A DNA stretch of 64,000 nucleotides from a virus. Below the pieces are notes generated by a model. The model searched no databases and had not been told where the DNA came from. It saw nothing but the letters and a program-made list of their open reading frames with translations. Made by a program: the position numbers and the translations under genes. The stretch spans positions 98,881-162,880 of the IMG/VR virus record IMGVR_UViG_3300035698_022838; one strand, 5' to 3'. The first letter of the stretch is position 1; each line of letters starts with the position of its first letter. Below are positions 15,011-54,531 of this stretch, one piece after another.

Positions 15011-16714
15011 TTATGCTATACCGCCTAATGGGATATTAACATGGAATCCAATATACATTGTTTCTGGATGGAAGCCTGCTTCCACTAGAGCGTATCTAGA
15101 TTTAACTGCAATCTTAGGAGACATTGTACCTTCTGAGATTGTTTGGATTGATTCTGCCATCATATAAGGCATGAATTTTAGACCTGGTTCATCATCACCA
15201 CCTTTTCTTCCAATAAGTACTCTATTATCGTTGAACTTCATGTTTTGATCAACATATACAGTCATACCTGCAAGCGAACCTACTGGGTAAAGTGTACCGT
15301 TGTTTTGAGTCAATGTGTTAGAGAATGGAGCAAAAGTGAACTGAGAAATATCTTGCAATGCACTTGCAACGTTAGCGTTAGTAACGATGAAGTTAGCAGG
15401 ACCTCTTCTTCCTCTGTTAGATACTACGTTAGCAGCAGCTAGAATTCTAGAGAATAATCTTCTTTGTAGAGTTGATAAGTTCTCATATGTTCCTGTAGCA
15501 GGGCCAGCAGGAGCACCAGCAGTACCAACAACGCTTGTAACTGCGTTATCATCTTTACCAATATAAGAAGGTATAGTATAACTACCAGCAGTACCACCAA
15601 TAACTAGGTTAAGGTTTAAAAGCTGACCTTCAGTTGTATAAAAATCACTGTGATTTGACCAACCTAAAGCAAATGCTCTAGAAAGGATATGCTTATTAAT
15701 AGCCTGAGAAACCTCGTTAACAAGTGCGTTCTCGATCATAGAAATAACATCGATACCGAATTGCTTGTTAAGGTCTTGGATTTGCTCAGTTGTCACTGAA
15801 GCAGCTACTTGGAAAGTGTCAGCCTCAACGAATTTCGTGAACGTTGAAAGTCCCATTGACTGGTAGTAATTAGTCTCACCATATGCTCTTAACATTGGAT
15901 TATATGACTTAGTACCGTCAACAAATGGTCCTTGCCAGTCGTCAGTATTCTGGAAACCAGCTCCAGAGAAACCTTGAATATGATCTTCAAGTGCTTTTAC
16001 TAGTTCTGCAGAAGCAGTAGTACTACCAACTTGAGCTCCGTCAAGTGCATTACCAATCTTAGTTGCTCCACCATCAATAACTGAACCAATTGATTCACCT
16101 GCTGTAAGAGCAGTAACTTTAAATATTGGGTAGCAGTCAATTCTAGAAAGACCAATAAACTCAGTAGTAATATATGCACTAGCTGAAGTTGCATTAGTGA
16201 TATAGAAAGTTGTACCAACTACAAGAAGAGCCATTGATGTTTGAGTAGTAACACGTACTTTGATCATTGTAGGTGCAGCAGCAAGTGCGTCAGCAGCTGT
16301 GCTTCCTACGCTTGTTGGACTTAATTTTCCACCTGCGTATACGTAATCTAAATAAGATAGTACGCCTGTAGGTCCAGACATTGGGATAACAGGTACGATG
16401 TCAAATCCAACAGTCTTCGCAGCTACCTGAATAGCTAATGGAAGTAATGAAGGAAATTTATCACCTGATCCTTGATTTGATGTGGTATAAAAACCAGCAT
16501 TTGCGTTACCTGTAGTAGGGAACGTTGGAGGTGCAACTGCACCCATGCCATTCACAACGTTCAGAGACTGATATGCACCAGCTGATTCGTTTAATGAATG
16601 ATAATGGCAATACTTAGATAGCCATTCTTTTTTTTCGGTATCTACGATTCCGGCCTTCTGCTCAATTATAGGAGACCATGTTTCGAAAATTTCCGCTTCG
16701 TTAATTAATTTCAT
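15011..16714 (-). CDS. 23: Major capsid protein (T4 gp23-like)
   Basis: The protein has 567 residues, close to T4 gp23 (521). The N-terminal arm ends in a gp21-type site, S-L-N-E before S-A-G at residues 40-46. Then comes FPSLLPLAIQVAAKTVGFDIVP-type sequence characteristic of gp23, and a C-terminal half with RRGPANFIVTN and VYVDQNM. Family role: it forms the hexameric lattice of the head after cleavage of the N-terminal arm. The gene follows the protease-scaffold gene by 19 bp and is terminated by a strong hairpin. Its leader is A-rich with no Shine-Dalgarno. Confidence 0.93.
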   Translation of the reverse strand: MKLINEAEIFETWSPIIEQKAGIVDTEKKEWLSKYCHYHSLNESAGAYQSLNVVNGMGAVAPPTFPTTGNANAGFYTTSNQGSGDKFPSLLPLAIQVAAKTVGFDIVPVIPMSGPTGVLSYLDYVYAGGKLSPTSVGSTAADALAAAPTMIKVRVTTQTSMALLVVGTTFYITNATSASAYITTEFIGLSRIDCYPIFKVTALTAGESIGSVIDGGATKIGNALDGAQVGSTTASAELVKALEDHIQGFSGAGFQNTDDWQGPFVDGTKSYNPMLRAYGETNYYQSMGLSTFTKFVEADTFQVAASVTTEQIQDLNKQFGIDVISMIENALVNEVSQAINKHILSRAFALGWSNHSDFYTTEGQLLNLNLVIGGTAGSYTIPSYIGKDDNAVTSVVGTAGAPAGPATGTYENLSTLQRRLFSRILAAANVVSNRGRRGPANFIVTNANVASALQDISQFTFAPFSNTLTQNNGTLYPVGSLAGMTVYVDQNMKFNDNRVLIGRKGGDDEPGLKFMPYMMAESIQTISEGTMSPKIAVKSRYALVEAGFHPETMYIGFHVNIPLGGIA

Positions 16715-16733: not shown

Positions 16734-18767
16734 TTAAAGCTTACCTTCGAGCGACTTCGCGACCCATGCTAGGTAATCATTTGAATACCCTTGTGGGCTT
16801 TTCGTCGTTGCCGACTCTGGTGTTTCCTGACCTTCGTTCAGTTTCTGAAGTCCGACTGGTTTAGCACCAAGTTGACGAGTTGACCAGAAATTCTTAATTT
16901 GGTACTCAGTGTCTAAGTTATAGAAAGAAGCTTGAGCAATCACAGATTGCTTTTGTCCCTCATTTAGACCTTCCCAAAGTTCAGAATATGCTGATGGTAT
17001 TTCATCAATAAATTTGTAACCTGATGTTTCAGTGTTTTCTTCGTTTACCGCACTTACGGTCGTTTCTGCTTTTTGTGTTTGAGCAGTAGGCTCGACTTTC
17101 GTCTGTGCCTCATTTATATTATCTTCAGTCTTTTGTGTTTTGACTGATTCTATCAATGAATCGATTTTATTACCAAGTGATGAATAATCACCTGCAAAAC
17201 CAGATTCTACTAATTCTACTTTAGATGCACCTTCTGCGTTTTCTCTTGCGCTTTCATTTAAGGATGGTGCTGCTGTTCCTAATGATTCTGAGATTGATCC
17301 AACCTCATCGATATTTGTATTCAATTTTTCTGCAATGTAATCTGAATAAGCTATACCTTTATTAAGGCCTTCTGCAATATACTCACTATAAGAAATTCCT
17401 TTATTAAGGTTTTCTGCAATATATTCGCTATAATTAATATCATTTTCTAATTTCTCTGCAATATATTCTGAATAAGCTATTCCCTTATCTAAATTCTCTG
17501 CCAAGTATTCTGAATATGAAATTCCTCTATCTAAATTCTCTGCTAAGTATTCTGAATATGAAATGTTCTTACCAAGATTTTCTCCTAAATATTCTGAATA
17601 TTGTAAACCATCATCGATTTTTTCTGCTAGATACTTAGAATAAGAAATGTTCTTATCTACACTTTCAGCAACATATTCTGAATATGAAATTCCTTTATCA
17701 ACGTTTTCTGCAACATACTTAGAATAAGAAATATTCTTGTCTAGATTTTCAGCAATATACTTAGAGTAAGAAATACTACTATCTAAATTTTCTGCTAAAT
17801 ATTCGCCGTACTTAATTGCACTATCAAGGTTTTCTGCTAGATAACCTGCGTATTTTTCAAGTTTAGTAACCCTTTCTTGTAGGGATATATCTTCAGGTGA
17901 CGATTCAATGGCTTCGGGGGATTCTACCTCAGAAGATTCCGCGACCGCTCCTACTTGTTTCATTTCACTGATCTGTCCTTCGAGTTTACCCATTGCTTCT
18001 TTAATAAAAATGGAATATTTGTTTAACTCTTCAGCAGTTACATATTCTTTGTTAGACTCCATAATGTCGGATTTATTTTTTTCTTGATCAAAAATCTTTT
18101 GAAATTCTTCGTTATTCTCAACACTATATATCTTTACGTTTGACTCATTTTCGATACCAAAAGACTCATTTATACATTCTAGTGAATTAACCAATGAATT
18201 TTTACTCCTTGTTTCCATGAAATCTGCGTCTAAACCGCAACTTTCATACACTCTTTCAAGTTGTGCATCTGGAAATCCAGGGTCAGCTACTAAGTCATAG
18301 GTAAAGATTTTTTTAATCTGTACTTTCTTATCTGGACCAACATTTCCTGCTGCTCTTGATGAAATAGACAGTGGTATACCCTCGTCTACTAGTTTCTTAG
18401 CAATTTGTCCTGCTGGGGTATCAAGTAATTTTACCTTAATCTTTAAAACTCTACCAGCCTCGTCATATTCTAGGTTTTCTATAACATGGGAAATATTCTT
18501 AAGAGATATGTCAAATTTCTCAGGGTGATCTAATTCACCAACGAGTCTTTTCTTACTCATTTTGGTTTTAAGATAGTCTAAATGAGGAAGATATTCGCCT
18601 TCTTCATAAATCCTTTTGTTATTATTCTCTTTACCAAACTGAGCTGCAATACCCTGAAGAATATACTCATCGTTATTCCCAGTCTCTACCTTAGAAACAG
18701 TTAAACTGTTGTCTTGCTTTTCTAAAATAAAGAGTAATTGTTCTTCTATTGATGGAAGCTCTTTCAT
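16734..18767 (-). CDS. 21: Prohead protease fused to scaffold core protein (gp21-gp22-like)
   Basis: The protein has 677 residues. Residues 1-185 match the T4 gp21 prohead protease: catalytic His in GELDHPE (H81), Ser in PLSISSR (S136/S137), and Asp in YDLVADPGF. The C-terminal part is scaffold-like: an acidic helical segment, then thirteen 14-residue repeats at 305-486, then a helical tail. Five [I/L]-N-E sites before S, G or A lie after residue 190 and none in the protease. In T4, protease and scaffold are separate genes; here one chain probably supplies both. It precedes the capsid gene and has a GATATATA site 26 bp upstream. Confidence 0.88.
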   Translation of the reverse strand: MKELPSIEEQLLFILEKQDNSLTVSKVETGNNDEYILQGIAAQFGKENNNKRIYEEGEYLPHLDYLKTKMSKKRLVGELDHPEKFDISLKNISHVIENLEYDEAGRVLKIKVKLLDTPAGQIAKKLVDEGIPLSISSRAAGNVGPDKKVQIKKIFTYDLVADPGFPDAQLERVYESCGLDADFMETRSKNSLVNSLECINESFGIENESNVKIYSVENNEEFQKIFDQEKNKSDIMESNKEYVTAEELNKYSIFIKEAMGKLEGQISEMKQVGAVAESSEVESPEAIESSPEDISLQERVTKLEKYAGYLAENLDSAIKYGEYLAENLDSSISYSKYIAENLDKNISYSKYVAENVDKGISYSEYVAESVDKNISYSKYLAEKIDDGLQYSEYLGENLGKNISYSEYLAENLDRGISYSEYLAENLDKGIAYSEYIAEKLENDINYSEYIAENLNKGISYSEYIAEGLNKGIAYSDYIAEKLNTNIDEVGSISESLGTAAPSLNESARENAEGASKVELVESGFAGDYSSLGNKIDSLIESVKTQKTEDNINEAQTKVEPTAQTQKAETTVSAVNEENTETSGYKFIDEIPSAYSELWEGLNEGQKQSVIAQASFYNLDTEYQIKNFWSTRQLGAKPVGLQKLNEGQETPESATTKSPQGYSNDYLAWVAKSLEGKL
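17310..17855 (-). repeat. Thirteen tandem 14-residue repeats in scaffold
   Basis: This 546-bp segment encodes thirteen uninterrupted copies of a 14-residue unit with consensus YSEYLAENLDKGIS. Two heptads per unit suggest a continuous helical rod. The copies are diverged, for example YSKYVAENVDKGI and YSDYIAEKLNTNI, so the array is not a recent slippage product. Confidence 0.92.
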
Positions 18768-31977: not shown

Positions 31978-33591
31978 TTAAAGAGTAAATCCACCTCCAC
32001 CATCTGCAGGGGCATCGCTTTTTCCTTCCCCTTCTTCACCTCCGCCTTCTTTAGCAGCTTGTTTCTCTTCGAGTTTCTTATATTGTTCGTTCTTTTGATA
32101 TTCGTCTCTTGTCATACCTAAGAATCTTTTAATAAGGAATTCTTTATCAAAATAAGGTACTTCTTCCTCTCCCACTTTTTGTCTTAATTCACCTAAAGAA
32201 TTTATAAACTCGCTTTTCTTATTATAATTTCTTAGCTTAATAAGTCTTTCGAATTCATTTTCTCTTACGTAATTTAAACCAAGATTAGTTTTAAATGATC
32301 TATCTTTGGCTAATTCTGGATAATCAAGACACATTTGTATATAAAGTGGTTTGATTAATAATTCTTGGAATATGGAGCGAAGTCTACTCAAGAATTTCTC
32401 ATATCTAATCTCGTCTCTTTCTAATTGGTCTATAGAGATCTGATAGTTAGCTGGAGTTCCACCTTTGAATGCAAATCTAGCATAAGGTAATTTAGAATCC
32501 ATTTTTAGTTTATTAAAGAAGTAAAGGACATTTTCCATAACATTGAAATCTGGACCATTAGGATCAAGAGTTTCAATCTGGGGTGATTGTCCATCTTTTT
32601 CAGGAAAAAGGTAGTTTTTATAAAATTGTACCTTAGGTCTTCCATTAACAGTTAATTCACCAGATGTATCATTCAATTCAATATCTTCCTTGTATATTGA
32701 CATTAATTGTCCTAATGTCTGCATACCTTTTTGTGCTGATTGGCTACCTATAGGAATTATAAACTTTAATCTATATGATGCATTCATAACATTCCAGATT
32801 ACCCTGGTGTTTTCCATTATTCGTAGAATGTTATAAGATCTAATTAATCTTTCAATGTAACTTACTCTAGAAACTGTATTACCTTTAGCATAGGACAGGT
32901 AAATTACTTGCTCATCCTTAAGTTTACGAGTCATTTTTACATCATCCGGATACTGAACCCATATTTGAGAATATTCTCCATTTGGTTGTAATTCTGTTGA
33001 TGGTTGTAATGATGTTGCATCTAATTCCTTAAACCCGACCACTTTTTTACCACTTGTATCATATACAATCTCAAATGCTAAGAACCCATCGATAAGAAAC
33101 TGTCTAAAATATTGCCAACCTAAAACACCTTGTTGGAATCCAAATAGCATATAAATATATTTGAATGTATCCTGGACTTTCTCTAATATTTCTGGTTTTA
33201 AATCAGTATCAGAAAGCGAAGGTCTACCGTAAACATTCTTTGTATCATAATTTATGCTATCATCAGCAAGCGTATCTAATATAAAATCAATTTCACCATT
33301 CAACGAAAACTTTCTCAGAAAATCTCTTTTTCCTAAATAGTCCTTGTCAAAATATGCTATATACTTTCTTATCTTGGTATCTTGGTAGCCCAATGTCCAG
33401 AAAAACGCATCTTTATTTGCTGTAGTACTTCCTTGCTCCCCTACGTAACTTGCCTCTGTTGCACCAATAGCTTGGGAGTTTCTGATGACCATGTCATCAT
33501 ACTTCATGCCAAATCTACCAATTTTATTAAGGTTCCTATAAAGTGTACCAAGGAACGATTTTTCTGCTATATTATCTAAAAATCCAGCCAT
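31978..33591 (-). CDS. 20: Portal protein, copy B (gp20-like)
   Basis: The protein has 537 residues, close to T4 gp20 (524). It shares with its upstream neighbour long blocks such as DMVIRNSQAIGATEA, YIAYFDKDYLGKRDFLRKF, YFRQFLIDGFLAFEIVYD and QVIYLSYAKGNTVSRVSYIERLIR. Portals form the dodecameric ring through which DNA enters and leaves the head. Its C-terminus ends in a Gly/Glu-rich tail. It starts 13 bp after copy A, so both should be translated from one message. Confidence 0.9.
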   Translation of the reverse strand: MAGFLDNIAEKSFLGTLYRNLNKIGRFGMKYDDMVIRNSQAIGATEASYVGEQGSTTANKDAFFWTLGYQDTKIRKYIAYFDKDYLGKRDFLRKFSLNGEIDFILDTLADDSINYDTKNVYGRPSLSDTDLKPEILEKVQDTFKYIYMLFGFQQGVLGWQYFRQFLIDGFLAFEIVYDTSGKKVVGFKELDATSLQPSTELQPNGEYSQIWVQYPDDVKMTRKLKDEQVIYLSYAKGNTVSRVSYIERLIRSYNILRIMENTRVIWNVMNASYRLKFIIPIGSQSAQKGMQTLGQLMSIYKEDIELNDTSGELTVNGRPKVQFYKNYLFPEKDGQSPQIETLDPNGPDFNVMENVLYFFNKLKMDSKLPYARFAFKGGTPANYQISIDQLERDEIRYEKFLSRLRSIFQELLIKPLYIQMCLDYPELAKDRSFKTNLGLNYVRENEFERLIKLRNYNKKSEFINSLGELRQKVGEEEVPYFDKEFLIKRFLGMTRDEYQKNEQYKKLEEKQAAKEGGGEEGEGKSDAPADGGGGFTL

Positions 33592-33604
33592 TTATTTATT
33601 TATT

Positions 33605-35185
33605 TTATTCCTTAGTTTCAGGCTCTTCGGAATCCTTATCCTTTTTACCTTCTTTCTTTTTCTTTTTCTTTTTATCTTCTATGGCTTTTTTATTCGCTCT
33701 GATATCCTCGTCGCTTAAACCTAAAAACGATTCAACTAAGAATGCTAAAGAGAAAAATGGTTTTTCTTCCTCTTCAGTTAATGCATATAAACCATCTATA
33801 GCATCTTTCTTAGCTTGCATGGTTTCTATTTCTTGATTTGCTCTAAACGCATTATCTGATATAAAAGTTAAACCAAGTTGACTTTTAAACATGTGATCTT
33901 TTTGTAATTCCGGAAAATCTTTACACATTTGAAGCCATAATGGCTTTATAATAAGATCTTGAAATCCGATTCTAAGTCTATTTACAAACTTACCAAATCT
34001 AATTTCTTCTTTATCTAAACCTTCTGCACCATCGCTATATTGGCCAATTGAGCCTCCATCAGGTCCTTGGAATCTTGAAGTTGGAACTTTTGATTCTTGT
34101 ACTAATTTATCAAAGAAATATGCAAGGGGTGCAGGATCATTAAGATTTGGTCCTGTACTATTCAATGGTTCTATTGTTGGAGTTCCATTTACACCAGATG
34201 GCATTAGATAATTTTTGAAGAATTGTACCTTAGGTCTACCATCAATACTTAATTCGCCACTATCATCATTAAATCTAATATCTTCTTTATAAATACTCAT
34301 TAATTCTCCAAGAGTTTGCATTGCTTTCTGTGGAGATCTAGATCCAATAGGAACAGTCATTTTCATTCTAAATGATGCGTTCATAACAGACCAAATAACT
34401 CTAGTATATTCAATTATTCGTAAAACATTATATGGTCTAATAAGTCTTTCTACATAACTAGCTCTAGTAACACTGTTACCTTTAGCATACGAAAGATATA
34501 TTACCTGTGAATCGTATAACATTCTTCTTTTTTCAAGATCTTTAGGATATTGATACCAAACATTTAACCAAGTACCGTCTGGCTGTTTCTCGACAGATGG
34601 CATAAGATGTATTGAATCAAGTTCTTTAAATCCAATTATATTTTTACCATCATCATCATAAACTATTTCAAATGCTAGAAAGCCATCTGTTAATAATTGT
34701 CTAAAATATTGCCAACCAGTAATATCATCAGAAAAACCAAGCATATCATAGATTTTCTTATAATTACTATTAAGTCTCTCTATTACTTTTTCTTTTAGAT
34801 TAGTTAAATTAGGAAATGATGGGTATGCAAAGAAATTATTGCTATCATACACAATACTCTCATCACAAATAGTATCTACGATATATTCAACCTCTGGGTT
34901 TAATACAAACTTTCTGAGATAGTCTCTTTTACCTTCATAATCCTTATCGAAATATCCTATATATTGTTTAGTTGAAACGTCCTGCTTACCTAGGGTATAA
35001 AGCATTGTTTCATCCTCTATGGTACCTTTCTTCATGAATTCTGCTTCGGTTTGTCCGATAGCTTGTGAATTCTTAATTACCATATCTCCATATCGCATGC
35101 CAAAACTACTTAAAGATTTTACTGAATCTCTAATCTTTTGGAAAATAGGATTGGTGTTTTCTGTGTTTTCTGTAAATCCTGCCAT
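33605..35185 (-). CDS. 20: Portal protein, copy A (gp20-like)
   Basis: The protein has 526 residues. It aligns with copy B over its full length (DMVIKNSQAIGQTEAEF; YFRQLLTDGFLAFEIVYD; QVIYLSYAKGNSVTRASYVE), at roughly half identity by eye. Its C-terminus ends in a Lys-rich then acidic tail (DKKKKKKKEGKKDKDSEEP). Both copies keep the core motifs, so neither looks decayed. It could form a mixed ring with copy B or a ring used at a different stage. Confidence 0.9.
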   Translation of the reverse strand: MAGFTENTENTNPIFQKIRDSVKSLSSFGMRYGDMVIKNSQAIGQTEAEFMKKGTIEDETMLYTLGKQDVSTKQYIGYFDKDYEGKRDYLRKFVLNPEVEYIVDTICDESIVYDSNNFFAYPSFPNLTNLKEKVIERLNSNYKKIYDMLGFSDDITGWQYFRQLLTDGFLAFEIVYDDDGKNIIGFKELDSIHLMPSVEKQPDGTWLNVWYQYPKDLEKRRMLYDSQVIYLSYAKGNSVTRASYVERLIRPYNVLRIIEYTRVIWSVMNASFRMKMTVPIGSRSPQKAMQTLGELMSIYKEDIRFNDDSGELSIDGRPKVQFFKNYLMPSGVNGTPTIEPLNSTGPNLNDPAPLAYFFDKLVQESKVPTSRFQGPDGGSIGQYSDGAEGLDKEEIRFGKFVNRLRIGFQDLIIKPLWLQMCKDFPELQKDHMFKSQLGLTFISDNAFRANQEIETMQAKKDAIDGLYALTEEEEKPFFSLAFLVESFLGLSDEDIRANKKAIEDKKKKKKKEGKKDKDSEEPETKE

Positions 35186-35221: not shown

Positions 35222-35827
35222 TTAAGCTTTTAATTTCGATCTGTAGTTAGTATATATCATGTTGAGCGAAATTCCTTGTATAACAGCATCTCCGAGATAT
35301 GGTAATTTACACCAATCCAGATAATCTACAATCTTTATATCTTTGAAATATTCTCTACGAAACCCAGTTATTGCTTTCTTATAACCCGTATCCTTGAATA
35401 AAGTAGATAATCGATCACTATTTAAAATAATTGGTATTTGCTCGCCATTGATTATAGTATCATTAGCTGAAATGATATCAAAAAATTGATTATAAAATTT
35501 TAAAAGAATCTTACCTCTATCATCAGGTGGGATTACATTTAGATCTATTCCTTTAATAATCACATCATTACCTATTTTCTTTCTTGATAAAAATAAAAAC
35601 GTTGGATATCTGTTTATATATTTTACAGTAGGAGATAGTGGTGTTTTTGTAAGATATTCTCCGACGTATATCTTACCAGGTATAAACGAATTAGTAAAAG
35701 TTTCTTTACCCCCCTTTCCATCTATACCGTATTTTTCGTTGTAATATAAATCAGTTTGCTTAGATAGTACCGAAATCGATGGTGCTTTCTCTTTATATTT
35801 TTTTATTTGTTCTATAAATTGTATCAT
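35222..35827 (-). CDS. Conserved-type phage structural-region protein
   Basis: The protein has 201 residues. A middle block (NRYPTFLFLSRKK ... IKGIDLNVIPPDDRGKILL) has the form Y-x-x-x-P, strand, then L-N-x-x-P-P, which I associate with proteins of unknown function near head-completion genes in T4-like phages. Its start overlaps the stop of the gp4-like gene by 4 bp, and the portals follow. A connector or DNA-packaging accessory role is likely but not provable here. Confidence 0.5.
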   Translation of the reverse strand: MIQFIEQIKKYKEKAPSISVLSKQTDLYYNEKYGIDGKGGKETFTNSFIPGKIYVGEYLTKTPLSPTVKYINRYPTFLFLSRKKIGNDVIIKGIDLNVIPPDDRGKILLKFYNQFFDIISANDTIINGEQIPIILNSDRLSTLFKDTGYKKAITGFRREYFKDIKIVDYLDWCKLPYLGDAVIQGISLNMIYTNYRSKLKA

Positions 35828-36306
35828 TTACTAAAAAGAAAATTTTCATTAACTACTCCAAATTTATAACCTCTACCTTCTGCCCATTGCTTTGCAGCTT
35901 TAAATTTAGATTGATTTGTAATCCAAACTTGCATTTTATGGTTATAGGACTTTAACTTTTTCATAGTTACGTTCCCTTCAAGTTTTGGTTTGGTGTGCTG
36001 TTTTTCTGGTTTTACCTCTATTAACCAATCCTGTTCTGTATTGTCATCCTTTAATACCCTTATGTAATTATCAACATTATAAACGTGATCTTTTTTATCT
36101 AATGGATTATAATATGGGATTGGTACTGGTTCTGAACTCCACTTCAATATTCTTTCATTACTATCACAGTACTTAGCAAATCTAAATTCCCAGGATGATC
36201 TACATATTATATTATTAATATCACCAACATACTTATCCGGATTATTAGGAACATAAAATCCTGTTTTATATGGACCGTTAGGTTTTATTTTTTTTATATC
36301 AGTCAT
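35824..36306 (-). CDS. 4: Head completion protein (gp4-like)
   Basis: The protein has 160 residues from the ATG at 36306; a GTG one codon upstream is possible. T4 gp4 has 150. Shared features are CRSSWEFRFAKYCDSNERIL followed by W-S-S-E-P and IPYYNP, the strand plus WLIEVKPEKQHTKPK, and a final KAAKQWAEGRGYKFGVVNE. These give E-x-K and acidic residues of a nuclease-like fold. In T4, gp4 completes the packaged head before tail joining. Confidence 0.85.
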   Translation of the reverse strand: MTDIKKIKPNGPYKTGFYVPNNPDKYVGDINNIICRSSWEFRFAKYCDSNERILKWSSEPVPIPYYNPLDKKDHVYNVDNYIRVLKDDNTEQDWLIEVKPEKQHTKPKLEGNVTMKKLKSYNHKMQVWITNQSKFKAAKQWAEGRGYKFGVVNENFLFSK

Positions 36307-36315
36307 CACAACAAT

Positions 36316-36675
36316 TTAAGCGTTGTAACTATTATCTTTTCCTGTGATATAGGAAAATGGAATTGTTTTTGGTGCTTTAGGTGGATGTATTTTTTTCCAT
36401 CCCTTTGCAAAGCCATTTTTTGCAATTTGTGTATAGTATGCAAATGGGTTATTAGATTTCTCTGGGTTAAATCGATTCCAGTATTTACATAAATCTTCCA
36501 TAGCAAAAGCCATACAATCTTTTTTATCTTCTGGATCTCTATATGCCATCTTCTTAGAAATTCCTGCTATCATCAATTCAAACATATCAATAGTTGGTCT
36601 AGTTAATTTACCTTTTTCCTTTGATTCTATAATGGCAGCTAGAAGATCAGCATTTTTTACATATACTTTAGCCAT
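36316..36675 (-). CDS. 55: Late transcription sigma factor (gp55-like)
   Basis: The protein has 119 residues, shorter than T4 gp55 (185). YVKNADLLAAIIESKEK, IDMFELMIAGISKKMAYRD and the region 2-like segment with NNPFAYYTQIAKNGFAKGWKK parallel gp55 NNKELLQAIIDWK and NPHAYITQACFNAFVQRI. gp55 directs host RNA polymerase to late promoters of the TATAAATA type. The C-terminal clamp-binding tail of T4 gp55 is not evident; the last residues are Pro/Lys-rich then FSYITGKDNSYNA. Recurrent GATATATA sites in the window fit its activity. Confidence 0.8.
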   Translation of the reverse strand: MAKVYVKNADLLAAIIESKEKGKLTRPTIDMFELMIAGISKKMAYRDPEDKKDCMAFAMEDLCKYWNRFNPEKSNNPFAYYTQIAKNGFAKGWKKIHPPKAPKTIPFSYITGKDNSYNA

Positions 36676-36730: not shown

Positions 36731-36916
36731 CTACTTATCCTCTTCTTGTTCAGATCCGTCTTCAGCAGAAATGAGCGCACTACCCTTGGATTTCTTCTTT
36801 CCATCAGGAGCTACACTCATTCTACCCTCAAAATCATCAATAAATGGCTCTGGGTTTTTGTTTTGGTCTTTGCTCGATGGAGCGATAGACCAAACTTTAC
36901 TAATTATTTTTTTTAG
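36731..36916 (-). CDS. Possible -1 frameshift extension of the 933-residue protein
   Basis: In the -1 frame relative to 36913-39714, coding sequence continues for 61 codons beyond the zero-frame stop, from LKKIISKVWSIAPSSKDQ to a Glu/Asp-rich end at a TAG. The frame has no ATG, GTG or TTG before residue 33. The zero frame ends A-AAA-AAC then TAA, the classic slippery heptamer. An internal ATG with GAGGG ahead could give a 29-residue peptide instead. A homopolymer sequencing error is the main alternative. Confidence 0.45.
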   Translation of the reverse strand, partial: LKKIISKVWSIAPSSKDQNKNPEPFIDDFEGRMSVAPDGKKKSKGSALISAEDGSEQEEDK

Positions 36917-39714
36917 TTTTTTTTTGACTCAATGCTTTCAGTAACTGCGTCTTCACCTTCTTTAATACCATAGCCCATTTCTTTATTAACTTTTATGTTA
37001 ACATCGCCATCTGCACCTTTACTAGGAGCTTCTGCTAATTTCTGGTCTATTTTCATAACGTCAGGATTTTTAGCTTTACCTTTTACAGTTTTAGCATCAT
37101 ATTTAATTTCCTTACTTCCACCTGGGGCTTTAGCTAATTTCTGGTCAGTTTTTTCAAGATCAGATTCGCTAGTATTGTAACCCATTTCGTTATCAACTTT
37201 ATGAGTTAATGCTTTACCTTTCTCATCACCCGGTGCTGAAGCAAGCTCCTGATCAATCTTTATGATGTCAGGGTTATTAGATTTACCTTTTACAGTTTTG
37301 TTAGGATATTTGATTTCCTTACTTCCACCTGGGGCTTTAGCTAATTTCTGGTCAGTTTTTTCAAGATCCGATTCAGACATATCAGTTTTACCTTCCTCTG
37401 GTGCTACTGCTAAATTATCAGCTTTTTCTGCATTCTCTGCATTCTCTGCTTCTTCACTAACATTATAACCGATTTTACCACCAATGTCAGTTTTAACTTT
37501 TACTTCGAATTTAATATCTTTATTCTTGTCATCTGGAGTATCTTCAAGGTTTGCATCTTTAAGGTTTACTACATCTTTCTTACCATTCTTATCTTGTTCT
37601 TTAGTCTTAGGTGCAGCAGTTGTGCTTTTCTTTAAAGTAGCTGCTGGTTTTGGATCTGACGAAGTTGATTTCTTTTTAGCAGGAGCTTTTGCTAATTGCT
37701 GTTCTCCTTCTTTAACTACTTCTTCACCATCTTCTTCAGCATCTTCTTCAGCAGGCATTTCAACATTTACTTCTTCATCAGAAGGTGTTTCTGTTGGATC
37801 TTCAGCTAAAGCATCTTCAATATCAATAATATCTTCTGTTCTAAAATCACCAGTTCTTCCGTTATCCATCAATACTGTATAGTTACCAGTTGTACTATCA
37901 ACTGAAATTACTTTACCTGTATTTCCTGATTCCTTTACTTTAACATAAGCACCAATAGTAAATTTATCATCTTCGTTTATATCGATTTTTTCAACTTGAC
38001 CACTATCGATTTTTTCAATTTCTTCATTGATTGCTTTCCATTTATTTCTAAGAGTTCTTAATTCAGTCTCTAATAAACTTTGTGTTCTTTCAATTTCTTT
38101 TGAATTTGAATATAATGGATTGGTTTCGGTAAGTGTTTTAAGCTTGTTTATTTCACCTTCAACGATTGCAATATTTTCCATGATCTGTGATCTATCATTA
38201 AGCATAATAGACTTAATTTTAGATTCACCTTCTAAGAATTGCGTTAAACCTTCAGAAATATCATACTTAAGGAAGTCCTTAACCATATTTGTTGCTTGTG
38301 TCCCGTTTACATCGAATATTGAATTTTCATTCATAGATTCGTTGATCCTGTTCAAGTAAATTTTACCTGCCCATTTAATAAGGTTTATAGATGCACCTTC
38401 ATATAAGTTAGATATAAGTCTTTTTGCAAAGTCTAATTCAACAACTTTGTCATAATTCTCATATAATCTAATTACGTCAGCAACTGCTTGTGATTCATTT
38501 ACACCAAAGCTTCCTGAAATTTCTAATGCAATTTGACTTGCCAATTTGTTTCTATCTGCGGTTTGCAACTGTAAGTCTTTACTATAAAGATTTACTGTTT
38601 CATTTTCTTCTATAATTCTAAATGACTTCGATCCAACATAAATACTTAGCCCTTGCTCGTTAACTTTAACTGCTGGAGAATAGAATGAAACCAATAAAGC
38701 TCTAAATTCTTCTGGTAACTCATCATATTCATTTTTCTTCAATCTTTTAATTGTTTCTTCGCTACCCTCAAAGATATTGTTTCCTATAGTGAACACAGTT
38801 TTACCACCGCCAACTAATACTGGTGAGAATATTCTTTTCACCTGTGAATTACCAACATTAACTGGAATATTTAGTTTATCACTGTCGTTTTCCATCAATG
38901 CTAATGTATTAACAAGATTTCTAACTACAGGATTGAATGACCAACGTGTAATTTCTTTATTAAGTAAGGAAACTGATTTGTTCTCTGCAACCAACCATTT
39001 ATTCAGAGATTCTGTTACCGGAGAATAAAAATCTGCTCCTGCATTTTGCTCAATAGCATAGATCGCTTTTGAAACTTCAATTTCAGGTTTTAAAGTATTA
39101 ATCTTTTCTGAAATTTCTTTATGTGTAGCTTTGATTCCATCATCCCAAGTAAAATTAGAAAATTCGGTAACAAATGCTTCTGCAACTAAATACTCTGGTA
39201 AATTAGTAGTCTTGATTAAATGTACGTATTTTTCACAAAGTACTTTAATATTAGGATGCTCGTAAATACCCTTACTTTGTAAGCTTACTATAGCCTCATA
39301 TACACCAAGATCATTCACACCTTGTGATGTAACAAATGCTTTTGCAGCACCATCATCAACATTGGCTAAACTTTCCGATATATTTTCGGTTTCTTTTTTA
39401 GGCTCATCTTTTTGACCTTCGATATAAGATCCTGACGTCTTTTGAGCACGTGAGTCAATACCTCCCCAAGATTCCATAAGTCTTTGTGCAGCAGCTTTAG
39501 ATCTATCTAGCTCCTCATTTCTTATTGTTTCTAACGGGTTCGTTTCTTTAGGTGTTGGTTCCATATTCTCTATATTTTTTACAGACTCGAGTAATTCTGT
39601 TTCGTTAATTGGTTTACCACTCTTGATCTCTTGTATGTGAGATTCACAGATAGTTTTTACATCTGGTGATTTGGTAGTGTCCCTTAATATTTCTAATTGG
39701 TTGAGCAAATTCAT
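36913..39714 (-). CDS. Long acidic virion/core-type protein with repeats
   Basis: The protein has 933 residues and no recognised family. Residues 1-580 are helical, with several [I/V]-N-E sites (RINESMNE, FGVNESQ). Residues about 590-640 look like a KOW/SH3 barrel (FTIGAYVKVKESGNTGKVIS). Residues 640-933 are low-complexity Lys/Glu/Ala/Pro with repeated D-Q-x-L-A-x-A-P motifs and a 69-residue tandem duplication. A GATATATA site lies 24 bp upstream. It may be a prohead core or tail-associated protein. See the adjacent entry for a possible frameshifted C-terminus. Confidence 0.65.
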   Translation of the reverse strand: MNLLNQLEILRDTTKSPDVKTICESHIQEIKSGKPINETELLESVKNIENMEPTPKETNPLETIRNEELDRSKAAAQRLMESWGGIDSRAQKTSGSYIEGQKDEPKKETENISESLANVDDGAAKAFVTSQGVNDLGVYEAIVSLQSKGIYEHPNIKVLCEKYVHLIKTTNLPEYLVAEAFVTEFSNFTWDDGIKATHKEISEKINTLKPEIEVSKAIYAIEQNAGADFYSPVTESLNKWLVAENKSVSLLNKEITRWSFNPVVRNLVNTLALMENDSDKLNIPVNVGNSQVKRIFSPVLVGGGKTVFTIGNNIFEGSEETIKRLKKNEYDELPEEFRALLVSFYSPAVKVNEQGLSIYVGSKSFRIIEENETVNLYSKDLQLQTADRNKLASQIALEISGSFGVNESQAVADVIRLYENYDKVVELDFAKRLISNLYEGASINLIKWAGKIYLNRINESMNENSIFDVNGTQATNMVKDFLKYDISEGLTQFLEGESKIKSIMLNDRSQIMENIAIVEGEINKLKTLTETNPLYSNSKEIERTQSLLETELRTLRNKWKAINEEIEKIDSGQVEKIDINEDDKFTIGAYVKVKESGNTGKVISVDSTTGNYTVLMDNGRTGDFRTEDIIDIEDALAEDPTETPSDEEVNVEMPAEEDAEEDGEEVVKEGEQQLAKAPAKKKSTSSDPKPAATLKKSTTAAPKTKEQDKNGKKDVVNLKDANLEDTPDDKNKDIKFEVKVKTDIGGKIGYNVSEEAENAENAEKADNLAVAPEEGKTDMSESDLEKTDQKLAKAPGGSKEIKYPNKTVKGKSNNPDIIKIDQELASAPGDEKGKALTHKVDNEMGYNTSESDLEKTDQKLAKAPGGSKEIKYDAKTVKGKAKNPDVMKIDQKLAEAPSKGADGDVNIKVNKEMGYGIKEGEDAVTESIESKKN
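37070..37380 (-). repeat. 207-bp tandem duplication in low-complexity tail
   Basis: Two near-identical DNA blocks are offset by 207 bp (for example 37081-37167 against 37288-37374). They encode SESDLEKTDQKLAKAPGGSK followed by EIKY and KTVKGK. The high DNA identity points to a recent duplication or ongoing homogenisation. Confidence 0.85.
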
Positions 39715-48148: not shown

Positions 48149-48727
48149 TTATAGGAAAAGGTCATTCCAGTGATCTGACTTCCAAGTAGTGTCTATGATA
48201 TAAAGTACATCACCAGTATCATAACTTAGATTCATAGCAGTAATTGGTTCTATAGGAAAACAATTATTTAGATTAATTCTTCTAAATACATCACCTTCTT
48301 TATTGAATATCGATACTACCATATTTCCAACATAGTCTCTTTTCAAACCCATAGCCCCAGTTAATGGATTATAAATTAGATCTGACCATTGTCTTAGTAT
48401 TTTATAAACTGACATTGAATTTTCTGAATTCAGATTTACTTCAAAACTCATATTAAACTGAACATCAGATGTTGATGGTTCACCACCAGCATATCTTCTC
48501 TCAGCAAACTTGTAGTATTGAGTTACTGGACCAGTTGGTTGTATATCAACTTGGAGCGCATTCATACTCTTAACTTGTTGAGTTAATATACTTTCTCCAT
48601 TAAAGTTTGTGTTACCAACGCTTACTGGAGCAGGCGGAGTAATAAGTACTTGAAACTGATTTAAGAAAATCGGTTCAAAGTTATTTCTTCCTGCCTTTGA
48701 ATTATTGAAATGTGATAGACCTGCCAT
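48149..48727 (-). CDS. 19: Tail tube protein, copy B (gp19-like)
   Basis: The protein has 192 residues; T4 gp19 has 163. Shared with copy A are NFEPIFLNQFQVLITPPAPV, KFAERRYAGGEPST, ILRQWSDLIYNPLTG and an end in S-D-H-W-N-D-L-F-L. The tube is the inner channel around which the sheath contracts. It lies 16 bp after copy A. Both copies look intact, so the tube may use one type mainly and the other at an end or on a variant. Confidence 0.88.
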   Translation of the reverse strand: MAGLSHFNNSKAGRNNFEPIFLNQFQVLITPPAPVSVGNTNFNGESILTQQVKSMNALQVDIQPTGPVTQYYKFAERRYAGGEPSTSDVQFNMSFEVNLNSENSMSVYKILRQWSDLIYNPLTGAMGLKRDYVGNMVVSIFNKEGDVFRRINLNNCFPIEPITAMNLSYDTGDVLYIIDTTWKSDHWNDLFL

Positions 48728-48743: not shown

Positions 48744-49298
48744 TTATAGGAATAAATCATTCCAGTGATCTACTGCCCAGACCATATTAATTTCATATAG
48801 ATTAGTACCATTAACATACTCAAGTTCCATAGGATCAATAGCCTTTAGTGGAAAAACATCTTTACATGATATTCTTCTAAATACATCACCATTTTTATTG
48901 AATACTGATATGACTATACTTCCTGTGTAATCAGCTTTTATTCCTTGTGCACCTGTTAATGGATTATATATTAAATCTGTCCACTGTCTAAGTGTTTTGA
49001 ATACAAACATTGAATTTGAATCATCAAGGTTTACAGTAAACTTTACATCAAGATCTAGTGTAGTTGTATCAGGCTTACCACCTGCATAATTTCTCTTAGC
49101 AAACTTATACTTCTGTGCAACAAATCCTGGATTTTTGTCAACATCCAAGCCGCTAACTGATATAACTTGCTCCAATAATATTTCCCCTCCACCAACTGGA
49201 GCAGGAGGAATAACAACAACTTCGAACTGGTTTAAGAAAACCGGTTCGAATTTGTTTATTGAATTTATAGAATTTTGATAGTGTGCTAATCTCGCCAT
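48744..49298 (-). CDS. 19: Tail tube protein, copy A (gp19-like)
   Basis: The protein has 184 residues, colinear with copy B (KFEPVFLNQFEVVVIPPAPV; KFAKRNYAGGKPDT; TLRQWTDLIYNPLTG; V-D-H-W-N-D-L-F-L). It follows the sheath gene by 42 bp, the T4 order 18-19. A GATAAATA octamer ends 20 bp before the start. Together the two copies account for an ancient duplication, with roughly half of positions identical. Confidence 0.9.
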   Translation of the reverse strand: MARLAHYQNSINSINKFEPVFLNQFEVVVIPPAPVGGGEILLEQVISVSGLDVDKNPGFVAQKYKFAKRNYAGGKPDTTTLDLDVKFTVNLDDSNSMFVFKTLRQWTDLIYNPLTGAQGIKADYTGSIVISVFNKNGDVFRRISCKDVFPLKAIDPMELEYVNGTNLYEINMVWAVDHWNDLFL

Positions 49299-49340: not shown

Positions 49341-52300
49341 TTATGCAAATTGGATAAATCCACCAGAAGCAATACCTCCTGTTCTCGTAACAGTAATTCT
49401 ATTAATGAATTTTTGGATACCTCTAACTGGCTCAACTATAATGTCTATAATACCCATATTTTGATCTATGATCGCTGGAGTATTGTTTGATGAATCCATA
49501 ACCACTTGGTAAGCATAAATACCACCACCGGCTTTTACTCCATCTAGATAATTATCGACTAGAGTTTTTATTTCTAATCTTATTGAGTCCTCGTTAAAAT
49601 CAAATAGATAATTCGACATTACTTCTTCAACATCAGTTTCTAAACTAATTAGAAGATCTCTAACGTGAATTAAATTGAATGCTGAATTTACAGTTTGATA
49701 TGCAGTTTGATTACCGAATATAGTTACACCCTTGCCTCTTTTCTTAATCAGAGGATTAAGTCCTACTGGCTCTAGCCATCCTCTATCCTCATCAGTGAAT
49801 TCATATTCTACACCGACTAAGTTATTACCTGATATTATTCCCCTCTTTTCACCAGCTACTAAACTATAAGGTTCTCCATTTGCAAATTTTCTTACAAAAT
49901 TATTTGAAATGTATGCTGCTGGTGGAACTTTAATGTTCCTGTTATTCTCTCTCATTACTAAATAAGGCATAAAATAAGCTGCATATTTAGATCCTTGATC
50001 TTCAGTAGGTAAACTAAACGTATAAGATGGGTTTAATGAAAGATTTCCACCCTCTGCAATATACTGTGCCTTTAATGGTGGATACGGATCAACCGATGTT
50101 GGTGCAGCGGTAAACCTAGGATCTGTTGAGTTTCTAAATTGTGTCATCGACGGAGCATTAATAAAAGCTAATGCTTTCTGTCTTAATTTAGCCAATCTAC
50201 TCAATTGATATTTAGAACCAGGCCCTATAACTCCACTGAATGTATCGACGATGTATCTATATGAAATAATATCTTTAGCTGCTAAAGTAGCAGATATATT
50301 AGTATCATACATAACATCTAAGATTTCTCCTATTCTATCATCAGTACCATTTGGTCTGTGTGCATCTGTCATTGTAAATCCAGCTAAATACGTAAAATCA
50401 AATGATGTTGTAAATTGAGGGATTGACTTAAACTTCTGTACAGTTAATGTTGTACCAGCATAATAATATACTGGTCTGGCAGTAGTAACCTGTACTACAT
50501 TAGCGGTTAATGTTTGTGCTACTGCAGTTACTGCAGTTAACCTCTTTTGTTGGTTTGCTCCTGTTGGTATACAAACATCTAAATCAGTAGAAACTAATAA
50601 ATCACCTACTGAAATCGCTGTAGTTGGTGATGATGTTATAGTGAAATTTGTAGGGTCTACTTTTGTTATAATATCAACGAATTCATTAATTGATCCAACA
50701 GAAGAAATTATATTTGTTTTACCATTAGCTACTGGGTTACCTATATTATCAGTAGTATATACACTTCCTATTGTAACTGATGGATAATCAGTTAATGCAC
50801 TAAACGGCATGCTTTCATTACTATACGCTCTTGCTCTAGTGATAGAATATTGATCTCTATCTATAGTATTTTCATAGGTGATATAATTTTCGCCATTAGC
50901 AGGATCTGATGCTAACCATAATTGATCCCCATCAGCTAATTCACCTTTTAAATTGTCATAATAAAATTGACTTTTTAATTGACCAACTAAAACATCAGCA
51001 GTTCCTCCAGTAATACCGGGAACGTTTGCTACTACATCAATATAATCTGCACTTGCGAATTGATAATAATTCTCAAATGCTAAACCAGTAGGACCAACAA
51101 TATCATATACAGGGGTAACTGATACTCCATCTGCCACATATGCGGCACCATCCAATGGATGGGTAAAAGTAACAATTAAATTACCACTTGATTGTATAAC
51201 TCCACTAACCTTAAGCTTAACTAAATCATTTTCTTCAAATTGATTTATAACGGACCCAGTAACACCAGTAAGACCTGTAACACGACCAACAATATATGGT
51301 TGATCTGTTGCGGTTGGGGTTAAAAACTCTAATAATTCAGTTTTTTCAGTTGAGGTTAAAGAATAACCCGTAACACCCGTATTAGTTTGTAAATAATGTA
51401 ACCCACCATAAGTTGCAGATGCATTATATGTTTCAAAAGACTGATATGGTACACCAGATGTTGGACCGGTAACACCAGGTATTCTATATACAGTACCAAC
51501 ATTAAATGAAGTTATATTAGGTGCGCCAGAAGAAGCTCCAGTTAAACCAAAAGTATTTTGTGTGTATAGATAATCAGCTAATAAATTTTGATCATAACTT
51601 AAGAAATTTAATCTCGTATCAGTCAAATCTCTATCAGCTGTCATTTCATCAATTAAATGGTGACCAACTAAGTCGATCTTAAATGTATTGTTGCAAAGGT
51701 TTTCCATCCCCTCTTCATCAACAGCACAAAATAGACCAGTTGATGGACTATTATTATTAATTAAGGTTTGGATATATTGGTTATTACCGTTTAGATCAAC
51801 AAAATTAGGAATTAAACATCCCGTTTGTTGTGTAATTATATTAACCTCTGGTTGTGATAAGAAATTAGTTATCTGATCCTTATCAAATCCATTATTAGTA
51901 AAATAGCTCGACCACTTTGGATCCAATGATAATGTTTCATAATCAGTCCAATCTCCAGAAACAGCAATTATGTCAATAAAATAATCAGAAATATAATCGT
52001 GTGGATGCATAAAACTAGGAACTTTATCCGCTCCATACCAATCTAAAGCAAAAACATCAAAACCTGCTAGAGGTGGTGTATTGTCAGTAGATTTTCTAAC
52101 GATAATACTCATCGCTTCTTTACCTAGATTTACAAGATTGAATAATCTTCCAGTATCAACAGTAGAAAGTGTTGCTAAGAAATAATCAGGATCTGCGAAC
52201 CAGAATCTTTCTTTGTTATAGAACGATGCATATAATTTAGACGTTAAAACGCCATTAGATTGTTCTGTGTCGATAGAATAACCGAAGTAATTAACTTTAT

Positions 52301-52622
52301 CTGCGGTTGTACTAGTCTCGTCATTATTAAGACTTAGCAAGTTTAATGCGAACACAGGGCCAGTATTAAGACATGCTAATATCGATCTATGGAAATAAGA
52401 ACCCTTAGCTTCTAAGGTCTTATCTATATCACCAAATACTGCTAATGCTGTAGTAACGTCCGGAACGTATACCGGTGCGTTAAAAGGACCTTTATTGGAG
52501 AATCCCACTACCAATCTGATCGTCTGGGAAGTTAATATTACATTTTCAGACGCATCAAATTCAAGCGTATATACACCAGAAGCTTTAAATTGTGATAAAT
52601 CAAGTTTGATTTTCTTTGCCAT
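49341..52622 (-). CDS. 18: Tail sheath protein with large insertion (gp18-like)
   Basis: The protein has 1093 residues; T4 gp18 has 659. The N-terminus (SGVYTLEFDASENV; LVVGFSNKGPFNAPVYV) and the C-terminal core (GRGVTIFGNQTAY-like KGVTIFGNQTAYQ; LISLETDVEEVM; FINRITVTRTGGIASGG) are sheath hallmarks. Residues about 355-740 are an extra Gly/Thr/Val-rich beta region with repeated T-G-x-T-G, probably protruding domains on the tail surface. The sheath contracts to drive the tube through the envelope. A GATATATA site lies 27 bp upstream. Confidence 0.9.
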   Translation of the reverse strand: MAKKIKLDLSQFKASGVYTLEFDASENVILTSQTIRLVVGFSNKGPFNAPVYVPDVTTALAVFGDIDKTLEAKGSYFHRSILACLNTGPVFALNLLSLNNDETSTTADKVNYFGYSIDTEQSNGVLTSKLYASFYNKERFWFADPDYFLATLSTVDTGRLFNLVNLGKEAMSIIVRKSTDNTPPLAGFDVFALDWYGADKVPSFMHPHDYISDYFIDIIAVSGDWTDYETLSLDPKWSSYFTNNGFDKDQITNFLSQPEVNIITQQTGCLIPNFVDLNGNNQYIQTLINNNSPSTGLFCAVDEEGMENLCNNTFKIDLVGHHLIDEMTADRDLTDTRLNFLSYDQNLLADYLYTQNTFGLTGASSGAPNITSFNVGTVYRIPGVTGPTSGVPYQSFETYNASATYGGLHYLQTNTGVTGYSLTSTEKTELLEFLTPTATDQPYIVGRVTGLTGVTGSVINQFEENDLVKLKVSGVIQSSGNLIVTFTHPLDGAAYVADGVSVTPVYDIVGPTGLAFENYYQFASADYIDVVANVPGITGGTADVLVGQLKSQFYYDNLKGELADGDQLWLASDPANGENYITYENTIDRDQYSITRARAYSNESMPFSALTDYPSVTIGSVYTTDNIGNPVANGKTNIISSVGSINEFVDIITKVDPTNFTITSSPTTAISVGDLLVSTDLDVCIPTGANQQKRLTAVTAVAQTLTANVVQVTTARPVYYYAGTTLTVQKFKSIPQFTTSFDFTYLAGFTMTDAHRPNGTDDRIGEILDVMYDTNISATLAAKDIISYRYIVDTFSGVIGPGSKYQLSRLAKLRQKALAFINAPSMTQFRNSTDPRFTAAPTSVDPYPPLKAQYIAEGGNLSLNPSYTFSLPTEDQGSKYAAYFMPYLVMRENNRNIKVPPAAYISNNFVRKFANGEPYSLVAGEKRGIISGNNLVGVEYEFTDEDRGWLEPVGLNPLIKKRGKGVTIFGNQTAYQTVNSAFNLIHVRDLLISLETDVEEVMSNYLFDFNEDSIRLEIKTLVDNYLDGVKAGGGIYAYQVVMDSSNNTPAIIDQNMGIIDIIVEPVRGIQKFINRITVTRTGGIASGGFIQFA

Positions 52623-52731: not shown

Positions 52732-54531
52732 TTATAGCAGTTTGCTGAAGTCTTTATAAAAACCACCTTCTTTAGAGATGCCATCAGCTTGTGCACCCTC
52801 ATTTAGCTTATCTTCGATGAGTGCTCGATAGTCCTCACTGAGATTATCATAGATATCACTTATTAAATCATAAAGATCTACTGATTCGAATAATGCGGAG
52901 GTATTTACAGCTGACATTGCAATATCGTCATGTCCACTTTGACTTGAATATGTACCCCTACCATTCATACCGAAGGAAAACATTTCAGGAACTGTATATT
53001 TCTTCTCGTTTAGAATTACTTTATTCGATCTGGTTTTAGATCTTAATATTTCACAATATCTTAATTTAATCTTATCGTTACCATATTTTATACCTGGTTT
53101 TTTATGTCTTGCAGCCTCTGTATGTTTTGTGTGTACAAATATTTCAGGCGGAATATCATCATTTAAAAGCATCTTATCATGGAGAAAATCACCTTTAAAG
53201 TTCATCTCCAATAAAATACGTATATTTTCAATATCAAAAATATCAATAACTAGCGTCTCCAATATTTTCTTGAAATCCTCAATTTCAATATCATTAGCTC
53301 TGAATAAACCAACTTGCAAAAGACCAAAGAAATCGGATTCATCAGTAAAGTCTGTCATCTCCTGAATTACCTTCTTTGGTAATGGAACAACTTTAAATAT
53401 ATTAATCACTGTATAGTCACCCTTTCCACCACCGGCAAGATCCACAGAAAGTACATATTTATTATTCAATAACGTATCTTCTTCGAGCCTAAATTTAGGA
53501 TGCCACTTTAAATGTTCATAAGATACGCCAAGATCCTCTAATACATCAATCTCGCGCCAAGTGTATTCAGACTCATTATTCTTCATTTTATTAAGTTCAT
53601 TCGAACCTATCAACAAAGTATCTGAACTTAGAAATTGATTACCATATTCCTGGTTGAATGCCTCCTCGCTGCCTAGTGTAGCAATTTCCTCAGCTTTCCA
53701 TGCTTCATCTCTACCTGGTACTTGCCACCAGTCAACCCGGATCGGGTTAAATCTGGTTAGACCTAGTAGTGCATCATTATAAATATCATAAAATTTATTC
53801 CTACCATTGGGGGTAGATGTAATAATTACTCTAGAAATCTTGGATGCTGATACTGTTGGATATGTTGATTTGAAAAAACTCTCCATGAAATTCTCATTAA
53901 TATGAGCAAATTCATCCATATACAAAAAGTGGATAGTAAAACCAATACCTGTTGTTTTCGTAGTCGTTTTTGCCTGTACTCTACAGCCATTATCAAATCT
54001 CATTGACATAACATTATTAACAATCATACCAGGTTTCAGAAAGAATGGTAAACCCTTAACCATAGATTTAATCTTATCTATTAATTCTTCAGCAGTATCA
54101 CCTATATTTGCAAGAATCATTGCATTTTTATCATGATTGAATAGAAGATACCAAAGTAAGATAATTGCTGAAGTAATAGATTTACCAACCTGTCTAGGTG
54201 CAACAAAAACATTAAATCTATGTTTTTGATATTCCTTAATAACAGATTCTTGATAGTCCCTAAGCGTGATGAACTCATAGCCATCATCGGTCATTACTTT
54301 ACAATATTTAGCAAAATAAATAACGTCACGACTACATTTCTCAATTTCAAGAATTTCATCTTGGGTATATTCCCAAAGTAGGTTTGGTTTTTTTAACTCG
54401 GGATCTCCGTCATGGAATGGATTTTCGACTTCTTTAAAGTCCAATCCTTCCTCTTCTATTTTTTGGAGTAATTCATTAACTCTTTCAGTAGTCCAATAAT
54501 TAGATCCTGATCCTGCTGCTTTCTTACCCAT
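52732..54531 (-). CDS. 17: Terminase large subunit (gp17-like)
   Basis: The protein has 599 residues; T4 gp17 has 610. Walker A APRQVGKS is at 111-118, Walker B FLYMDEFAH at 202-210, and the coupling motif IITSTPNG near 236. The C-terminal RNase H-fold nuclease begins with VLSVDLAGGGKGDYTV near 363. It pumps DNA into the prohead and cuts concatemers. It lies 11 bp after the small terminase gene, as in T4 order 16-17-18-19. Confidence 0.95.
   Translation of the reverse strand: MGKKAAGSGSNYWTTERVNELLQKIEEEGLDFKEVENPFHDGDPELKKPNLLWEYTQDEILEIEKCSRDVIYFAKYCKVMTDDGYEFITLRDYQESVIKEYQKHRFNVFVAPRQVGKSITSAIILLWYLLFNHDKNAMILANIGDTAEELIDKIKSMVKGLPFFLKPGMIVNNVMSMRFDNGCRVQAKTTTKTTGIGFTIHFLYMDEFAHINENFMESFFKSTYPTVSASKISRVIITSTPNGRNKFYDIYNDALLGLTRFNPIRVDWWQVPGRDEAWKAEEIATLGSEEAFNQEYGNQFLSSDTLLIGSNELNKMKNNESEYTWREIDVLEDLGVSYEHLKWHPKFRLEEDTLLNNKYVLSVDLAGGGKGDYTVINIFKVVPLPKKVIQEMTDFTDESDFFGLLQVGLFRANDIEIEDFKKILETLVIDIFDIENIRILLEMNFKGDFLHDKMLLNDDIPPEIFVHTKHTEAARHKKPGIKYGNDKIKLRYCEILRSKTRSNKVILNEKKYTVPEMFSFGMNGRGTYSSQSGHDDIAMSAVNTSALFESVDLYDLISDIYDNLSEDYRALIEDKLNEGAQADGISKEGGFYKDFSKLL

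Follow-up and report, generated by a model that had tools for sequence, protein, structure and literature searches.

Throughout a broad clade of huge, uncultured phages, two full-length, adjacent genes for portal proteins of the T4 gp20 family are fixed, and we propose that their products could assemble together into a single mixed portal ring. The pair was studied in a window of 64,000 nucleotides that forms the end (positions 98,881-162,880) of a 162,880-bp IMG/VR record, and the entire record holds exactly these two portals. Portal A, the upstream copy (33605..35185, minus strand; 526 amino acids), and portal B, the downstream copy (31978..33591, minus strand; 537 amino acids), are separated by an AT-rich spacer of 13 bp (33592..33604, minus strand), which ranges from -1 to 23 nt across the complete pairs of relatives. 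The two proteins are 50% identical (253/503) and 69% positive by BLASTP over nearly their entire length. Both matched Pfam Portal_T4 (PF07230; 199.8 and 193.4 bits against a cut-off of 22.9, E = 8.5e-59 and 7.9e-57) and the portal family phrog_213 (E = 2.9e-55 and 1.2e-56). The open reading frames, BLASTP, Pfam and phrog_213 thus agree with the initial annotation of the window, made from the letters alone, which had described two full-length tandem portals 13 bp apart at roughly half identity.

T4 gp20 (PDB 3JA7, 6UZC, 9MKB) belongs to the same family as A and B by HMM, sequence and fold search: it was the best PDB structure for both copies in the sequence search, and the best Foldseek matches were likewise T4 gp20 structures (E = 8e-19 for B and 2e-16 for A, TM 0.4-0.6, with the clip and loops modelled with low confidence). 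The AlphaFold monomer models behind these matches had a mean pLDDT of 65-70 and a pTM of 0.57-0.59. Alignment with T4 gp20 gave the same order of wing, stem, clip, stem, tunnel loop, wing and crown in A and B, and a search of both for a domain missing from one copy found none. The further statement of the initial annotation that the core motifs are intact also stood, as 128 columns that are at least 90% conserved carry the same residue in both copies (53 representatives).

The loci examined for the distribution of the pair (n = 246) came from scans of viral contigs with A, B and divergent members, supplemented by relatives of a 462-kb phage. Of these, 224 loci, from IMG/VR, had a tandem, same-strand portal pair in constant A-B order. 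Complete pairs numbered 192, of which 106 are distinct at the protein level, the latter being the safer count because some contigs were fetched twice in different scans. Recurrence on this scale, in 224 fetched loci and 106 distinct complete protein pairs, shows that the pair is not an effect of chance or assembly. Three further loci (L034, 10001-11617; L049/L340, 1542-3164; two contigs) have a frameshifted A beside an intact B, the frameshift probably being a sequencing error. Every in-clade locus with a single copy ends at a contig edge where the other copy is expected, no lineage loss of A or B was found among the sampled clade loci, and contigs of up to 373 kb carry exactly two portals each.

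One portal is found in the 462-kb phage LR756500 and its relatives (L173-L178), in the 636- and 642-kb phages, in Lak phages and in locus L377, while the 735-kb phage has one full-length portal and a gene for a shorter portal-like fragment (342 amino acids). LR756500 and IMGVR_UViG_3300042897_000994 (locus L175) are the closest relatives, with a portal that shows 43-44% identity to each of A and B; they share the neighbourhood of the pair (late sigma factor, gp4-like protein) but have one full-length portal and one tail tube. The portals of Lak and of the 636-, 642- and 735-kb phages (Al-Shayeb et al., 2020; PMC7162821) are 33-37% identical, and each of these phages again has one full-length portal and one tube. 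Portal duplication goes unmentioned in the main text of that huge-phage survey, and searches of the open full-text literature turned up no account of a tailed phage with two portals. Two fragments in the single-portal phages deserve a separate remark. The 342-amino-acid protein of the 735-kb phage (L171; LR756501 142302-142841) aligns to portal residues 66-273 and, by eye, runs straight on into the second stem and wing as if it had no clip; it is a separate, truncated portal paralogue outside the two-portal lineage. In the 462-kb phage, a 190-amino-acid frame (L172; LR756500 256133-256351) matches the portal clip region only, over 38 amino acids at 47%, which suggests a clip-like fragment or remnant.

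In a maximum-likelihood tree of 64 portals all A proteins form one clade (support 100/99.8) and the 462-kb lineage lies outside the two-portal clade (support 100/99), while a single B clade was not rejected (p-AU 0.47), so that a single origin of B is compatible with the tree but not fully settled by it. These groupings indicate a single duplication, later than the divergence from the 462-kb lineage but earlier than the separation of subclade I, which holds the window, from subclade II, the other large subclade. The portal neighbourhood of late sigma factor, gp4-like protein and portal is identical in the single-portal relatives, which implies that the duplication happened in place. Independent duplications giving rise to A in subclades I and II were also considered and are ruled out by the grouping of all A proteins. 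The mirror-image trees of A and B are what linkage alone would produce.

Strong purifying selection acts on A and B alike, at equal rates, and is relaxed in neither. Values of dN/dS were 0.031-0.045 for A (about 0.037) and 0.035-0.054 for B (about 0.050), approximate figures because only few unsaturated pairs were usable (five for A, four for B); the dN values of the two copies, taken across all pairs, showed a correlation of 0.987 and a median ratio of 1.05. The initial annotation had allowed that one copy might prove free of purifying selection in relatives; instead dN/dS is about 0.03-0.05 in both and neither copy has been lost. An artefact or a pseudogene is excluded by the same dN/dS values and by the universal retention of both copies.

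The duplication of the portal has a parallel in the tail, which the initial annotation missed, as it did the C-terminal tail described below. The tail tube paralogues T1 (48744..49298, minus strand; 184 amino acids; phrog_32623 / phrog_3629) and T2 (48149..48727, minus strand; 192 amino acids) are in tandem and 54% identical, and the portals and tail-tube genes are the only pairs in the 162-kb record that are at least 50% identical over their length. Both tube copies were present in 78 of 80 tube loci, the other two being cut loci. The tube was doubled in 15/15 two-portal genomes with a complete tube locus (one more was cut) and single in 8/8 single-portal genomes with a tube match. The tube tree is compatible with one or two tube duplications. 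As portal and tube doubling fall on one and the same part of the tree, their joint occurrence amounts to few events or even one, and should be read as a single historical coincidence and not as repeated evidence. The major capsid protein (15011..16714, minus strand), a prohead maturation protease (16734..18767, minus strand; phrog_207 to the N-terminal part, followed by a long extension), the large terminase subunit (52732..54531, minus strand) and the tail sheath (49341..52622, minus strand) lie in the same window as the portals and give them a head and packaging context. Across contigs of up to 373 kb terminase and sheath are single and the capsid protein has one full-length copy, so that the ring proteins lining the DNA path have been doubled and the shell and motor have not. 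The record contains a further, more distant paralogue pair (window 548-1444, minus strand, and G000:C1:83894-84898) with 31% identity over 349 aligned columns.

Domain boundaries mapped from T4 gp20 (PMC4493910) were used to locate the differences between A and B. The same majority residue is found in both copies at 64-79% of columns in stem helix 1, the clip and the wing, at 41% in the N-terminal region, and at 32-35% in the second stem helix, the tunnel loop and the crown. Strict fixed differences amount to seven sites, too few for a functional map. At an aligned position of the N-terminal helix, A has D/E20 where B has K/R19, fixed in both subclades, and the tunnel loop is near neutral in A and carries a charge of +2 to +3 in B, again in both subclades. 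The tunnel loops of adjacent subunits interact in T4 (PMC4493910), so the tunnel-loop contrast would suit a contact between A and B, and as marks of such a subunit contact the charge differences are suggestive only.

A and B carry a flexible, low-complexity tail of 30-60 residues after the crown, whereas T4 gp20 has a short disordered end, and this tail can finish in [F/V/I]-[T/K]-[L/I]-COOH. In the window, portal B ends in GGGGFTL, the motif codons (FTL) lying at 31981..31989 (minus strand), and portal A has a charged tail without the terminal motif. Of the first representatives, 52/52 had the strict motif at the very C-terminus of one or both portals, compared with 2/524 other open reading frames of the same loci (0.4%). 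In the wider set one or both portals carried it in 180 of 192 complete pairs: B alone in 77, A alone in 77 and both in 26, which leaves 12 with neither. Members of subclade I have the motif on B, with one group having it on A as well, and in members of subclade II only A carries it. A rule that every genome has at least one tail-bearing portal failed in this wider sampling, at 12/192 loci in about five lineages, some with variant endings: the motif is absent from both copies in lineages L372 and L374/L375, and a few others have a variant ending. The exceptions imply that the motif is dispensable or replaceable. One such variant is shared by the two copies, as in L307, L308, L309 and L311 A and B have the identical last ten residues AEAGGDMGTI within each genome.

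In genomes with a tail ending on both copies, A and B agree over their last eight residues (identity 0.775, against 0.547 when shuffled; 0/5000 shuffles reach it) better than orthologues match between genomes (A-A, 0.49; B-B, 0.58), in contrast to the overall A-B identity of about 50%. The match is not merely that of a recent copy, since several pairs differ at synonymous sites. Because the two tails of one genome resemble each other more than orthologous tails do, the simplest reading is that both dock to a common partner and that either copy can do the job. A tail that switches carriers would come naturally with one ring and would be awkward if A and B held fixed, different places, and therefore appears to fit the former better.

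We propose the following sequence of events. The ancestral gene of the T4 gp20 family would have been duplicated in place in the ancestor of the clade, after which both copies became obligatory. Most likely made together from adjacent genes, A and B are likely to serve as portal subunits in the same virions; that they share one mixed ring of twelve subunits, perhaps alternating, is the reading we favour with middling confidence. Such a ring would probably be dodecameric, with A and B contributing six subunits each. The shared surfaces, the stem and the clip that serves terminase and neck, would have been conserved in both copies, while specialization between them would have affected the channel and tunnel loops that face the DNA, the N-terminal helix and the crown. 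The C-terminal tail with its terminal hydrophobic motif is a likely docking peptide for an internal head partner, for example the scaffold core, and may ride on A, on B or on both because it would be needed on only some subunits.

The tail tube appears to have been duplicated in the same ancestor as the portal, and the joint doubling raises the possibility that the conduit went from 12- to 6-fold symmetry at the portal and from 6- to 3-fold in the tube, a tube of three T1 and three T2 being C3. The T4 portal and gp13 are dodecameric and gp14 is hexameric (PMC12270204), which would make a C6 portal a good match for the six-fold parts below it. That the whole DNA conduit is built of alternating paralogues, a C6 portal (six A, six B) on a C3 tube (three T1, three T2), is a more tentative extension that we regard as possible but doubtful. 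If true, it would represent the first naturally heteromeric portal and a coordinated reduction of symmetry in successive phage rings. Three known systems offer partial likenesses. The T4 portal is a dodecamer of one gene product, whereas here there are two paralogues. The portal ring of phage lambda contains gpB and its processed form gpB*, both made from one gene by proteolysis; it thus also has two subunit forms in the ring, but from one gene where there are two here. In the T5 tube protein pb6, which carries a duplicated MTP domain, the duplication lowers ring symmetry (PMC8718954), but the domains are fused in one protein and not encoded by two separate tandem genes.

One alternative is that the virion contains two homomeric rings, a packaging portal of one copy and a second ring of the other in the connector or inside the head. 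Two such rings would equally keep both complete copies under selection, and A and B differ most in the channel and tunnel loops, the N-terminus and the crown, as might be expected of proteins at different positions along a channel. Against this, the clip, the site for terminase and neck, is conserved in both copies, and the tail sits on different copies in different subclades and co-evolves between A and B, so that the rings would have had to swap or share a partner. Known connectors lack a second ring of portal fold, and we know of no exception. We therefore consider this arrangement unlikely. Of the three options offered by the initial annotation, placement of one copy elsewhere in the connector thus fits less well than one shared site, the mixed ring is favoured, and distinct particles are disfavoured for the reasons given below.

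Another possibility is that only one copy forms the structural portal, the other acting as a low-copy assembly factor, such as an initiator or membrane anchor seeding the ring, or joining it at random in minor stoichiometry. T4 portal assembly begins on the inner membrane with helper factors (PMC5694885), and the tail is asymmetric between the copies in most genomes, both of which would suit such a role. However, the copies evolve at equal rates, their domains are equally complete and the tail moves between them, and we judge this division of labour distinctly improbable. A still poorer prospect is that A and B belong to two particle types or infection phases with one portal each. Two full portals could seed two heads, and the pair might be translated differently, but terminase and sheath are single and the capsid protein has one full-length copy, separate regulation is unlikely for genes 13 bp apart on one strand, and the doubled tube would be left unexplained by a switch of head type. 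Tandem duplications are common in T4-like phages, but a neutral or dosage duplication without specialization, or an annotation or assembly artefact, is scarcely credible for a duplication that predates the clade, with 106 distinct pairs, no in-clade losses, a dN/dS of about 0.04 and fixed differences, dosage moreover leading one to expect gene conversion or losses.

The mixed ring would matter beyond this clade. Few machines of tailed phages and herpesviruses are as conserved as the portal, which is regarded as a homododecamer. A portal that nature has long encoded in two genes would offer a genetic handle on the long-standing question of whether the twelve subunits act alike in packaging, in gating and at the 12-to-6-fold mismatch with the tail. 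The parallel duplication of the tube suggests a general route by which ring proteins may specialize in huge phages. One portal per genome is also an unsafe assumption when huge phages are counted.

The ancestral portal neighbourhood comprises a late sigma factor (T4 gp55-like; 36316..36675, minus strand; phrog_234 and synteny) and a T4 gp4-like head completion or head-closure protein (35824..36309, minus strand; phrog_218, a TnsA-like Pfam match and synteny), whose gene is upstream of the portal in single-portal relatives as well. Between the gp4-like gene and portal A lies a gene for a fast-evolving protein of 201 amino acids (35222..35827, minus strand), which is present throughout the two-portal clade and had no family match among phrog and Pfam profiles. 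The gene was not detected by tblastn at this place in the outgroups, though a gap of similar size is there, and its product is a possible partner of the portal. No RNA families were found close to the portal locus, and a scan of bacterial genomes returned a single weak match of 51 residues that gave no clue to the host. The portal region also encodes a protein of 933 amino acids (36913-39714, minus strand) with repeated C-terminal segments (KTDQKLAKAPGGSKEIKY-like). Elsewhere in the record, a protein of 160 amino acids (G000:C1:39163-39645) resembles the N-terminal part of the major capsid protein over 49 residues (49% identity); in relatives there are versions of 153-159 amino acids and a separate, distant capsid-like protein of 305-316 amino acids.
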